DNA of 57,177 nt from Burkholderiales bacterium. Its GTDB lineage: Bacteria > Pseudomonadota > Gammaproteobacteria > Burkholderiales > Burkholderiaceae_C. The translations under genes were made by a program, and so were the position numbers. Positions within the stretch are counted from its first letter, which is position 1, and each line of letters starts with the position of its first letter. The notes beneath the pieces were generated by a model. That model searched no databases, was not told where the DNA came from, and saw nothing but the letters and a program-made list of their open reading frames with translations. Positions 3,921 to 7,188 of the stretch are shown here, one piece after another. The stretch spans positions 1 through 57,177 of the forward strand of contig CANCFV010000010.1 in the NCBI GenBank assembly GCA_947377275.1, read 5' to 3'.

Positions 3921-5048
3921 TCAGATCCGCATGGGCATGACCACGTACTTGAACCCCTCGTACTCGGGGTTGGTGATCAAGGCCGAGCTGTTGGCGTCCT
4001 GCAGCGACACGGTCACCATGTCCTGGCTCATGTTGGCCAGCACGTCCATCAGGTAGCCCACGTTGAAGCCGATCTCGAAGCTGTCGCCGCCGTAGTCGAT
4101 TTCAAGTTCTTCCTTGGCCTCTTCTTGCTCGGCGTTGCTCGAGGCAATGCCCAGCACGCCAGGGGCGAAGTTCATGCGCACGCCCTTGAACTTTTCGCTG
4201 GTCAAAATCGCCGCGCGCTGCAGCGAGGCCAGCAAGGTGGTGCGGCCCAGGGTGATGTGGTTTTTGTGGTTCTTGGGGATGACGCGGTTGTAGTCGGGGA
4301 ACTTGCCCTCGACCAGCTTGGTCACGAACTCCAGGCCACCGAAGGTGAACTTGGCTTGGTTGCCGGCAAAACGCATCTCGATGAGCTGTTCAGCCTCGTC
4401 TTTGCCCTTGCCATCGTCCTTGAGCAGACGTTGCAGCTCCAGCACCGTCTTGCGCGGCAGGATGACTTCCTGCTTGGGCATGTCGACATCCAGCGTGGCC
4501 TGCGAGAACGCCAGGCGGTGGCCGTCGGTGGCCACCAGGGTCAGGCTGTTGCCTTCGGCCACGAACAAGATGCCGTTGAGGTAGTAGCGGATGTCGTGCA
4601 CCGCCATGGCGAAGTGCACCTGGCTGATCAGCATCTTCAGCGTCTTTTGCGGGATGCTGAACGCGGGGCCGAAGTCGGCCGCCTCTTGCACCAACGGGAA
4701 GTCTTCAGCCGGCAGTGTTTGCAGCGTGAAGCGGCTCTTGCCACCTTGCAGCGTCAGCTTGTTCTGGTTGGCCGTGAGCGACACGGTTTGGTCAGACGGC
4801 AGGCTTTTGAGGATGTCGCCCAGCTTTTTGGCGCCAACGGTGATGGCGTAGTCGCCTTCGTCACCGTCGAGTTGTGCTTGGGTGCGGATCTGGATTTCCA
4901 GGTCGCTGGTGATGAGTTCGAGTTGAGCGCCACGCTTGCGCAGCAGCACGTTGGCCAAGATCGGCAAGGTGTGGCGGCGTTCCACGATGCCGCCAACAGA
5001 TTGCAAGGCCGCGAGGACTTTTTCTTGGGCTGCTTTCAACACAATCAT
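3921..5048 (-). CDS. dnaN: DNA polymerase III sliding clamp, beta subunit
   Basis: Protein of 375 residues, the dimeric ring that tethers the replicative polymerase to DNA. Three repeated clamp domains fill the whole length. Family signatures include VERRHTLPILANVLL near the N-terminus, VATDGHRLA in the middle, and the C-terminal YVVMPMRI, part of the hydrophobic cleft that binds partner proteins. Its ATG at 5048 lies only 16 bp beyond the left DnaA-trio-like element of oriC, so its promoter must lie within or overlap the origin. Gene order dnaA-dnaN-gyrB on one strand is classical. Confidence 0.98.
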   Translation of the reverse strand: MIVLKAAQEKVLAALQSVGGIVERRHTLPILANVLLRKRGAQLELITSDLEIQIRTQAQLDGDEGDYAITVGAKKLGDILKSLPSDQTVSLTANQNKLTLQGGKSRFTLQTLPAEDFPLVQEAADFGPAFSIPQKTLKMLISQVHFAMAVHDIRYYLNGILFVAEGNSLTLVATDGHRLAFSQATLDVDMPKQEVILPRKTVLELQRLLKDDGKGKDEAEQLIEMRFAGNQAKFTFGGLEFVTKLVEGKFPDYNRVIPKNHKNHITLGRTTLLASLQRAAILTSEKFKGVRMNFAPGVLGIASSNAEQEEAKEELEIDYGGDSFEIGFNVGYLMDVLANMSQDMVTVSLQDANSSALITNPEYEGFKYVVMPMRI

Positions 5049-5101
5049 CTTAGTCTTTCAAATTAGTCGTTGTAGTAGAGGACGACTTTTTCTGTGAACA
5101 A
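5041..5101 (-). promoter_or_regulatory. Left basal unwinding module of oriC, mirror image of the right one
   Basis: Read on the minus strand: the box-like TTGTTCACA (5101-5093), a 14-nt spacer, the triplets CTA CTA CAA CGA CTA (5078-5064), then a moderately AT-rich stretch running into the dnaN start. It matches the right module almost base for base, except for one extra triplet. The box differs from TTGTCCACA by one base, so it may be weaker. Confidence 0.6.
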
Positions 5102-5571
5102 CGCTATTTTGTCCTGATCCATCAAGGATTTAGCCCCGGGACAAGCCTGTGGATGCTACCCGCCTTCGCGATGGGGACAACAGACAACAACTTCAGAAAA
5201 CGCGCCTGCCCTGTGGACAACCGGGTGCTTGTTCCGTTTTTGTCCACAGCTTTGTTGGCTTGACGGCGCACCCTCGATTCTGGCAGGGGTTCTGGCAGCC
5301 TGAAAAAGGCCATTGCACGGCCCAGATCAAGGCCTGCCGCCTGGGGACAAGTCTGTTCATGGAAAAAGGACAAATGCCTGTTTGTCCACAGGGAGAGCCT
5401 TTGCGCCGAAGTTGTTGTATGGCATGCCGCAAGCACACAAGGGTGCTGTCCACAGGCTTTTCATTCGCTCATGTGCTTGATCTCATGGCAAAAAATGGCG
5501 TTGTCCACAGAACAAGGCCCCCTCTACTACGACTACCAATCAAATAAAAGAAGAATAGGAATGTGGGTGCA
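5049..5571. other. oriC: Chromosomal replication origin (oriC) between dnaA and dnaN
   Basis: This 523-bp gap between dnaA and dnaN contains at least six DnaA-box-like 9-mers: 5093-5101 (minus, TTGTTCACA), 5212-5220 (minus, TTGTCCACA), 5240-5248, 5382-5390 and 5501-5509 (plus, TTGTCCACA), and 5446-5454 (plus, CTGTCCACA). A degenerate one is at 5149-5157. An AT-rich stretch lies at 5536-5561 beside the dnaA stop. Boxes in the left part point left and those in the right part point right. No protein-coding frame here is credible. Confidence 0.9.
5501..5561 (+). promoter_or_regulatory. Right basal unwinding module of oriC (DnaA box, spacer, trios, AT-rich)
   Basis: TTGTCCACA at 5501-5509 is followed by a 14-nt C-rich spacer, then the triplets CTA CTA CGA CTA at 5524-5535, then the AT-rich run at 5536-5561. 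This is the order of the bacterial basal origin unwinding system known from Bacillus subtilis: DnaA box, GC-rich spacer, then DnaA-trios whose complement reads 3'-GAT-5'. The assignment is by pattern; unwinding was not shown. Confidence 0.7.
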
Positions 5572-7116
5572 TCACCCTTTGAGCGTTTGCTCCAGCACGT
5601 GCAACTGCTGGTTCAGCTCGGTGTCTTTGCCACGCTCGCCCATCACCTTGCGCACGGCGTGCAGCACGGTGGTGTGGTCGCGGCCACCGAACAGCTCGCC
5701 GATTTCAGGCAGGCTCTTTTGCGTCAGCTCTTTGGCCAGGTACATGGCGATCTGGCGGGGGCGGGCGATCGAAGCCGGGCGCTTCTTGCTGTACATGTCA
5801 GCGACCTTGATCTTGTAGAAATCGGCCACCGTTTTCTGGATGTTTTCGACGCTGATCTGGCGGTTCTGGATGCTCAGCAAGTCTTTGAGCGCTTCGCGGG
5901 CCAGCGTGATGGTGATTTCTTTGTGGCTGAACCTGGCAAAGGCCAGCACCTTGCGCAGCGCGCCTTCGAGTTCACGCACGTTGGCGCGCACGTTCTTGGC
6001 CACGAAAAAAGCCACGTCTTCGGGCATCTCGATGGCCTCCAAGGCGGCCTTTTTGATCAAGATGGCCACGCGCATTTCCAGCTCGGGGGGCTCAATCGCC
6101 ACCGTCAGGCCCGCGTCAAAGCGCGAAGTCAGGCGTTCATCGATGTTGGCCAGACCCTTGGGGTAGGTGTCTGACGTCATGATGATGTGGGCCTTTTTCG
6201 CCAGCAGCGCTTCGAAAGCGTTGAAGAACTCTTCCTGGGTGCGGTCTTTCCCGGCGAAGAATTGCACGTCGTCGATCAGCAGCAAATCGAGCGAGTGGTA
6301 TTTGGCCTTGAGCTCGTCAAAGGTCTTGCGCTGGTAGTTCTTGACCACGTCCGAGATGAACTGCTCGGCGTGCAGGTACAAGATCCGGGCATCGGGCTTG
6401 TCGGCCAGCAGGGCGTTGCCCACGGCGTTCATCAAGTGGGTTTTGCCCAGGCCCACGCCGCCGTAGATGAACAATGGGTTGTACATCTGGCCAGGCGCGC
6501 CGGCCACGTGCAGCGCCGCGGTGCGGGCCATCTGGTTGGCACGGCCGGGCACGAGGTTGTCGAAAGTGAGCGCGGTATTCAGGCCCATGACCTGAGGTTG
6601 CCCACGTTGCGTGCGCAGCCCTTCGTGGGCCTGTGGGTAAGTGCCCGCGGCTGGGCCGGGGCTGCTGTGGCTGCCATGGCCTTGGTAAGGGCTGGGGCCG
6701 GCCGGGTGCATGGCCGGTGTCTCTGAGCCGGGCTGGCCGTGGGCCTGTGCGTTGGCTGGCAGGGCGCGACTGGGCATGGCCATGCCGGGGCGCAAGGGGG
6801 CACCCATGGGGGCGGCCACGCGAGGCGCCAGGCTGAGCTCCATGCGGATGGGGCCGCTTTGCTGCTCGCCCAGGATGGCTTCGAGGCGGCCGCTGTACTG
6901 CGTGCGGATCCAGTCGAGCTTGAAACGGTTGTCCACGCGCACGCTGACCACGGTGGTGTCGCCTTGCTGGATCACTTCGGCCGCGGCCAGGGGGCGGATC
7001 CAGGTGTTGAACTGTTGCTCGGGCAGCTCGGTGGCCAGCTGCTCACAGGTGCGCTGCCAGAGGGTGCTGGGCTCGTTCAATGGGCTGGGGCTGGCGGTCA
7101 AATCGGCGGCACTCAT
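5572..7116 (-). CDS. dnaA: Chromosomal replication initiator protein DnaA
   Basis: Protein of 514 residues that binds DnaA boxes and, as an ATP filament, melts oriC. Domain I ([23 protein letters not shown], about 20-42) mediates self-association and DnaB contact. Domain II (about 100-180) is an unusually long Pro/Gly/His-rich linker. The AAA+ domain has Walker [10 protein letters not shown] (219-227), Walker [11 protein letters not shown] and sensor motifs. C-terminal domain IV carries the helix-turn-helix and signature [11 protein letters not shown]. It ends 11 bp from the AT-rich part of oriC. A DnaA box lies just upstream of the start codon (7119-7127) and another, perfect one at 7180-7188, which suggests autoregulation. 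Confidence 0.98.
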
Positions 7117-7118
7117 GT

Positions 7119-7127
7119 TGTGGACAA
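7119..7127 (-). promoter_or_regulatory. DnaA box abutting the dnaA start codon
   Basis: TTGTCCACA on the minus strand, two bases upstream of the dnaA ATG. A box in the leader or ribosome-binding region fits DnaA repressing its own synthesis. Confidence 0.6.
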
Positions 7128-7146
7128 GTCCTTCCTTGGGAGGCGA

Positions 7147-7188
7147 ATTCTAAGCGTCATCCACTGGTTTTCAGGCAGGTTATCCACA
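7147..7188 (-). promoter_or_regulatory. Putative dnaA promoter with upstream consensus DnaA box
   Basis: On the minus strand, CTGAAA (7174-7169) and TAGAAT (7152-7147) are 16 bp apart and form a plausible -35/-10 pair. A perfect box, TTATCCACA at 7180-7188 on the plus strand, sits immediately upstream of the -35. The box is seen directly; the promoter is inferred. Confidence 0.45.

Follow-up and report, generated by a model that had tools for sequence, protein, structure and literature searches.

The gap between dnaA and dnaN in a draft genome of a Burkholderiales bacterium carries two opposed modules, each made of a DnaA box, a spacer, and a run of CTA-type triplets, and the question which this locus raises is whether they belong to one replication origin or to two. 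A sequence-only reading of the 57,177-nucleotide stretch analyzed here (the window) had described them as two mirror-image DnaA-trio unwinding modules of oriC. According to our analysis, the modules are real, opposed, and outward facing, and each lies on its own easily melted stretch; however, judged from their sequence context, they are not two modules of one origin: each forms one end of a full origin unit, about 210 bp long, which the window carries twice, back to back in the dnaA-dnaN gap, with one copy inverted.

The window is taken from base 1 onward of contig C10, part of a 3.81-Mb draft genome (86.9% complete, 6.2% contaminated), whose closest dnaN relatives, at 94 to 95% identity, are mostly labelled Aquabacterium. 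Both dnaA and dnaN lie on the minus strand, 523 bp apart. The draft genome holds a gene for IHF-beta, which scores above the curated cut-off, and one for a DciA-type helicase loader, which scores above the cut-off but weakly (E 1.1e-5). With only about 5 kb of the window to the left of the gap, GC skew shows no clean switch and is uninformative as to the origin. Upstream of dnaA, at 7119-7188, there are two good DnaA boxes (TTATCCACA at 7180 on the plus strand and TTGTCCACA at 7119 on the minus strand), which perhaps serve dnaA autoregulation.

Two origin units in one gap

Both modules had been described exactly to the base, including the equal length of their spacers (Table 1), and the left one indeed runs up to the start of dnaN, since this gene starts at 5048 on the minus strand. 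The larger units were recognized from the gaps of relatives and from 49 units set side by side, of which four (those of G002, G004, G014, and G030) lie outside the common register and were left out of the column counts. Read backward from the triplets, each unit shows first the 14-nt spacer and the DnaA box, then an AAAAT block and, 19 nt ahead of that box, an IHF-like TAANNNNTTGAT site; weaker boxes follow, then a GTTGTTGT block, and finally two strong boxes in opposed orientation. The two units of the window, designated N (dnaN side) and A (dnaA side), are directly seen to be homologous and colinear, being 55% identical over 240 nt without gaps, while 300 other registers reach at most 36.5%. 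Unit A has lost one strong DnaA box, the counterpart that other units carry opposite 5382-5390. Of the 13 sites in the 57-kb window with at most one mismatch to the DnaA box, 4 cluster in the dnaA-dnaN gap. The putative IHF-like sites at 5120-5132 and 5470-5482 are named for their resemblance to the IHF consensus.

Table 1. Features of the dnaA-dnaN locus, in window coordinates
Feature	Position	Strand	Remark
dnaN	3921..5048	-	start at 5048
Easily melted end, unit N	5041..5080		third least stable separated 40-mer of the window
Origin unit N, ~210 bp	5055..5264	-	colinear with relatives' units
Triplets CTA CTA CAA CGA CTA, unit N	5064..5078	-	after the 14-nt spacer
Spacer GAAAAAGTCGTCCT, unit N	5079..5092	-	14 nt
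Module DnaA box TTGTTCACA, unit N	5093..5101	-	2 mismatches to TTATCCACA
Putative IHF-like site TAAATCCTTGATG, unit N	5120..5132	-	TTGAT 19 nt before box; conserved in relatives
DnaA-box-like site, unit N	5148..5156	-	2 mismatches
DnaA-box-like site, unit N	5172..5180	-	2 mismatches
DnaA-box-like site, unit N	5212..5220	-	1 mismatch
DnaA-box-like site, unit N	5240..5248	+	1 mismatch
Origin unit A, inverted copy towards dnaA end, ~210 bp	5338..5547	+	homology to unit N
DnaA-box-like site, unit A	5342..5350	-	2 mismatches
DnaA-box-like site, unit A	5382..5390	+	1 mismatch
DnaA-box-like site, unit A	5446..5454	+	2 mismatches
Putative IHF-like site CATGTGCTTGATC, unit A	5470..5482	+	poorer; TTGAT likewise 19 nt before box
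Module DnaA box TTGTCCACA, unit A	5501..5509	+	1 mismatch
Spacer GAACAAGGCCCCCT, unit A	5510..5523	+	14 nt
Triplets CTA CTA CGA CTA, unit A	5524..5535	+	after the 14-nt spacer
Easily melted end, unit A	5523..5562		second least stable separated 40-mer of the window
dnaA	5572..7116	-	gene end at 5572

A sequence-only model was built from an alignment of 52 cassettes, each 81 nt long, drawn from the window and its relatives. With a leave-out weight matrix of 46 cassettes, for which the window's 2 rows and the 4 belonging to loci L002 and L007 had been removed, the cassette of unit N (5055-5135) scores 118.6 bits and that of unit A (5467-5547) 63.8 bits, against -48.3 bits for the next best place on both strands of the window, which rules out a chance match. 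Across the whole draft genome, the full model, which includes the window's own two rows, finds only these two places (E 2.4e-22 and 1.2e-15). An artefact of assembly was likewise rejected, since the copies disagree at roughly 45% of their positions and since elsewhere an inverted pair lies inside a 4.87-Mb contig (G009) and a direct pair inside a 3.89-Mb contig (G005). Neither unit had a match at E 0.001 among 72,556 plasmid records searched for a source of the extra copy, and no known RNA element was matched in Rfam at the gathering threshold at 4900-5700.

When nearest-neighbour duplex stability was computed for the 40-mers of the whole window, the three least stable separated ones were found to start at 177, 5523, and 5041, so that, by this measure, weak duplex lies at the outer ends of both units. 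The least stable of all, 177-216, lies to the left of a 450-1247 frame. The same holds in the genus: in 12 of the 13 gaps with two cassettes, the unit ends are also the two weakest places of the retrieved locus (all 5 inverted pairs and 7 of the 8 direct ones, the exception being G031).

The units were also compared with the rule for the basal unwinding system (BUS) of Bacillus subtilis-type origins, as given in PMC8287927. Both have a DnaA box with at most two mismatches 0 to 16 nt before the triplets (TTGTCCACA with one and TTGTTCACA with two, each at 14 nt) and weak duplex adjoining the triplets (the 40-mers from 5523 and 5041). The rule further needs at least three consecutive strict trios, defined in the same text as NAN read 3'-5'. 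CAA and CGA are not strict DnaA-trios, which corrects the name given to the modules, and thus the CTA register holds only two consecutive strict trios in each module. No run of at least three was found in unit A, while unit N has a three-trio run only off the CTA register, at offset 6; in the CTA register, 3 of the 49 genus units have such a run. Triplets with CGA or CAA in place of CTA, as at 5064-5078 and 5524-5535, occur throughout the genus, for which reason we deem them candidate deviant DnaA-trios and probably the working form in this genus; deviant trios of this kind are suspected in PMC8287927. Other family members have strict-trio runs, of which we noted three examples. On these features the units resemble BUS origins with deviant trios, and strict BUS membership is not claimed.

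The unit in Aquabacterium and the wider family

The genus set comprised 42 Aquabacterium genomes, namely, the window's draft genome (G000) and 41 further ones, and the sequence model detected the cassette in 39 of them, including the single cassettes of G002 and G004, which have a 15-nt spacer and were missed by the ungapped matrix. A single intact cassette is present in 26 of the 39 gaps. The remaining 13 have two, in inverted orientation in 5 (G000, G009, G013, G020, and G022) and in direct orientation in 8 (G005, G006, G011, G023, G025, G031, G038, and G041); the idea that the right-hand module might be unique to the window was wrong. For the left-hand module, lack of conservation among relatives had been named as the observation that would count against the reading. 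The opposite was found, as the dnaN-side cassette is the conserved one, being present in 35 of the 39 gaps, and the stronger conservation of the dnaN-side unit is thus established directly.

In four genomes (G011, G023, G024, and G031) the dnaN-side unit has decayed while upstream units are kept, so that the units appear interchangeable. In the direct genomes, remnants resembling the dnaN start follow the upstream units (by eye; easiest to recognize in L013, more eroded in L012, L014, and L004 to L006), which suggests a tandem duplication that carried the dnaN start along. At about 2820-3500 of L012, L013, and L014, two tandem units are followed by a decayed third one adjoining dnaN, with worn dnaN-start remnants after the units, an arrangement that reads as origin turnover. 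A third cassette of G038 lies on a separate 4-kb contig (L123, G038:C118), where the fetched piece has no dnaA or dnaN match, and it may be contamination. A hairpin followed by a T-run lies 3' of dnaA in many relatives (e.g., L001 to L010, by eye); it is absent from the window at 5549-5571, where unit A begins directly at the dnaA stop, and is absent elsewhere too (e.g., L022 to L028).

At a cassette threshold of E 0.001 or better, 350 of 399 sampled family genomes contain the cassette, and 114 of the 399 contain at least two (table read by hand; 112 genomes searched again, plus G000 and G009), so that, for this family, the earlier statement of a single such module per known origin goes too far. 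The closest pair in the 112 genomes is less than 1.3 kb apart in 35, all outside Aquabacterium and all on the same strand; 1.3 to 6 kb apart in 44 (40 on the same strand, 3 outward, 1 inward); 6 to 30 kb apart in 20; farther apart in 7; and on different contigs in 6. Inspection of 11 of the 112 by eye revealed two units with upstream boxes in 10; L195 (G310), which covers one of two places, has none at the threshold. Inverted pairs within one gap were seen only in Aquabacterium. In the order-wide sample of 300 genomes, 38 match, and weak close same-strand pairs outside the family occur in G441, G489, G724, and G695.

The cassette adjoins dnaN in only 2 (G213 and G310) of 18 single-contig family genomes, and in the other 16 the nearest cassette is about 35 to 260 kb from dnaN. 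Complete family genomes (L197 to L203) carry tandem units far from both dnaA and dnaN (some 50 kb away in G044 and G229, for example), a placement suggestive of origins both doubled and displaced. The GC skew of G229 has a local minimum adjoining the cassette pair and a deeper one near 1,465 kb, and that of G044 has its minimum near 3,300 kb, between the cassettes and dnaN. In G374 and G312 (L194 and L196), one outward-facing unit lies on each side of dnaA, which is another mirror arrangement.

History and constraint of unit A

In a tree of 60 units, the A copies of the five inverted genomes form one group (support 94/88; 92% of bootstraps), which establishes that the inverted copy of these five species goes back to a single event. 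The window's own A copy sits on a long branch (0.48). In the dnaA-dnaN tree, which has an arbitrary root, the inverted genomes are found at two positions, with the single-unit genomes G034 (on a long branch of its own) and G012 as neighbours; a later loss of unit A would explain this, and G012 and G034 may have lost it.

Constraint was assessed by comparing columns at least 90% conserved in 21 single-copy units with variable ones. Between the A copies of G009, G013, G020, and G022, conserved columns are 0.85 to 0.92 identical and variable columns 0.53 to 0.67, and between the window's A copy and the others the contrast is weak (0.67 to 0.68 and 0.51 to 0.67, respectively). Within the module core, the window's copy matches the other A copies throughout (21 of 21 positions), whereas outside it the match extends to 91 of 136 (Fisher p 0.0005); the test is biased in the copy's favour, since the core is what drew notice to it. 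The pattern is consistent with constraint at the core of the window's unit A and fraying elsewhere.

Readings of the pair and its relation to known origins

Our preferred reading, to which we assign a probability of about 0.7, is that the gap is a naturally doubled oriC, with two complete homologous units back to back and their melting ends outward, the dnaN-side unit being probably the main origin and the dnaA-side unit a weaker second origin still constrained at its core. On the sequence comparisons above, unit N is probably the main origin, and unit A is probably redundant to it. The genes for IHF-beta and DciA in the draft genome are in keeping with this reading. What weighs against it is the window's A copy, with its long branch, missing box, poorer IHF-like site, and weak column contrast, together with the shortfall of strict trios and the single-unit neighbours G012 and G034, and GC skew lends it no support. 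By analogy with the published BUS origins (PMC8287927), DnaA would fill the box array and IHF would bend the DNA, after which DnaA at the last box would pass onto the triplet strand, stretch it, and open the adjoining stretch; over evolution, copies of the unit could replace one another.

Unit A could instead be a relic, that is, an old inverted duplicate of oriC in the course of decay, which has ceased to open DNA and to load helicase, as its long branch, its lost DnaA box, and its weak constraint outside the core would suggest. Decayed units also adjoin dnaN in the four genomes named above, and the neighbours of the inverted genomes, G012 and G034, have a single unit. We nevertheless hold this unlikely, because the core is kept in full, the melting end is among the three weakest 40-mers of the window, and the A copies of four other species are under clear constraint. 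Retention of the spacer, the triplets, and the weak end speaks also against a site that titrates or recharges DnaA and does not start replication, which would not need them; the DnaA boxes kept beside an IHF-like site would fit such a role, comparable to that of datA and DARS in E. coli, yet we deem it a remote prospect. That the left cassette is mainly a promoter or operator of dnaN and the right one a chance match is hardly credible: the left cassette does end at the dnaN ribosome-binding region, but in 19 of 80 relatives, with gaps of 14 to 182 bp, dnaN stands without the pattern, the nearest cassettes of the 16 single-contig genomes are far from dnaN, and the leave-out scores exclude chance for the right cassette.

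The opposed modules might also be one machine, as in the stronger version of the sequence-only reading, in which both outer flanks are opened in the same round and receive one helicase each, giving symmetric outward forks. Such a machine would suit the outward geometry and the weak duplex at both ends, and the loading of two helicases at one bacterial origin is called unclear in PMC10201434. However, among the 13 pairs of the genus the direct ones outnumber the inverted (8 against 5), all 35 close family pairs outside it are on the same strand, and two-thirds of the genus gaps (26 of 39) make do with a single intact cassette. Orientation therefore seems not to matter, and the commoner direct pairs do not support joint outward firing; coordinated outward firing is possible but unsupported, and we regard the one-machine explanation as highly unlikely. 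A broader proposal, which we advance as distinctly improbable, is that the family's origins are compact, self-contained units subject to copying, inversion, relocation, and loss, that many members run on at least two equivalent origins, and that in the inverted pair described here each unit would open its own outer flank and load one helicase outward, making a symmetric bacterial origin.

Bacterial chromosomes are normally taken to have a single origin. In E. coli oriC, the order runs from the melting element through a DnaA box and an IHF site to further boxes. These elements, as given for E. coli in PMC13220808, are shared with the units of the window; unlike them, that oriC is a single unit located away from dnaA, and its trio motifs are no more than putative. 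BUS origins, as described in PMC8287927, share with the window the DnaA box, the short spacer, the CTA-type triplets, and the weak duplex beyond, whereas the window has two whole units in one gap, one inverted, and has CGA and CAA among its triplets. For each origin, the survey published in PMC8287927 retained a single best candidate, so doubled units would hardly have shown. The bipartite oriC of B. subtilis and Helicobacter pylori, as described in PMC13220808 and PMC8235120, likewise has two DnaA-box clusters near dnaA, which in B. subtilis flank the gene, with strand separation at one site (PMC13220808); in the window, by contrast, dnaA has both units on the same side, each with a melting end of its own, so that it is not bipartite in that sense. 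The putative double origins of Gao 2015 (PMC4403523) resemble the window in having more than one origin-like region per chromosome; the named cases are two regions around duplicated dnaA genes or regions 150 to 882 kb apart, and a pair of units sharing one dnaA-dnaN gap is not described among them. No report of two origin units in one gap was found among the matches listed, by titles and starts of abstracts, in open-access literature on duplicated, tandem, multiple, or double origins, DnaA-trio origins, and the oriC of Comamonadaceae, Burkholderia, Betaproteobacteria, and Aquabacterium.

If both copies work, the locus would offer natural material for studying how firing is kept to once per cycle in a cell that has two origins side by side, and for asking whether the loading of two helicases depends on which way the unwinding module points. 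It would also be informative on how oriC can move away from dnaA, with a second copy taking over before the first decays.
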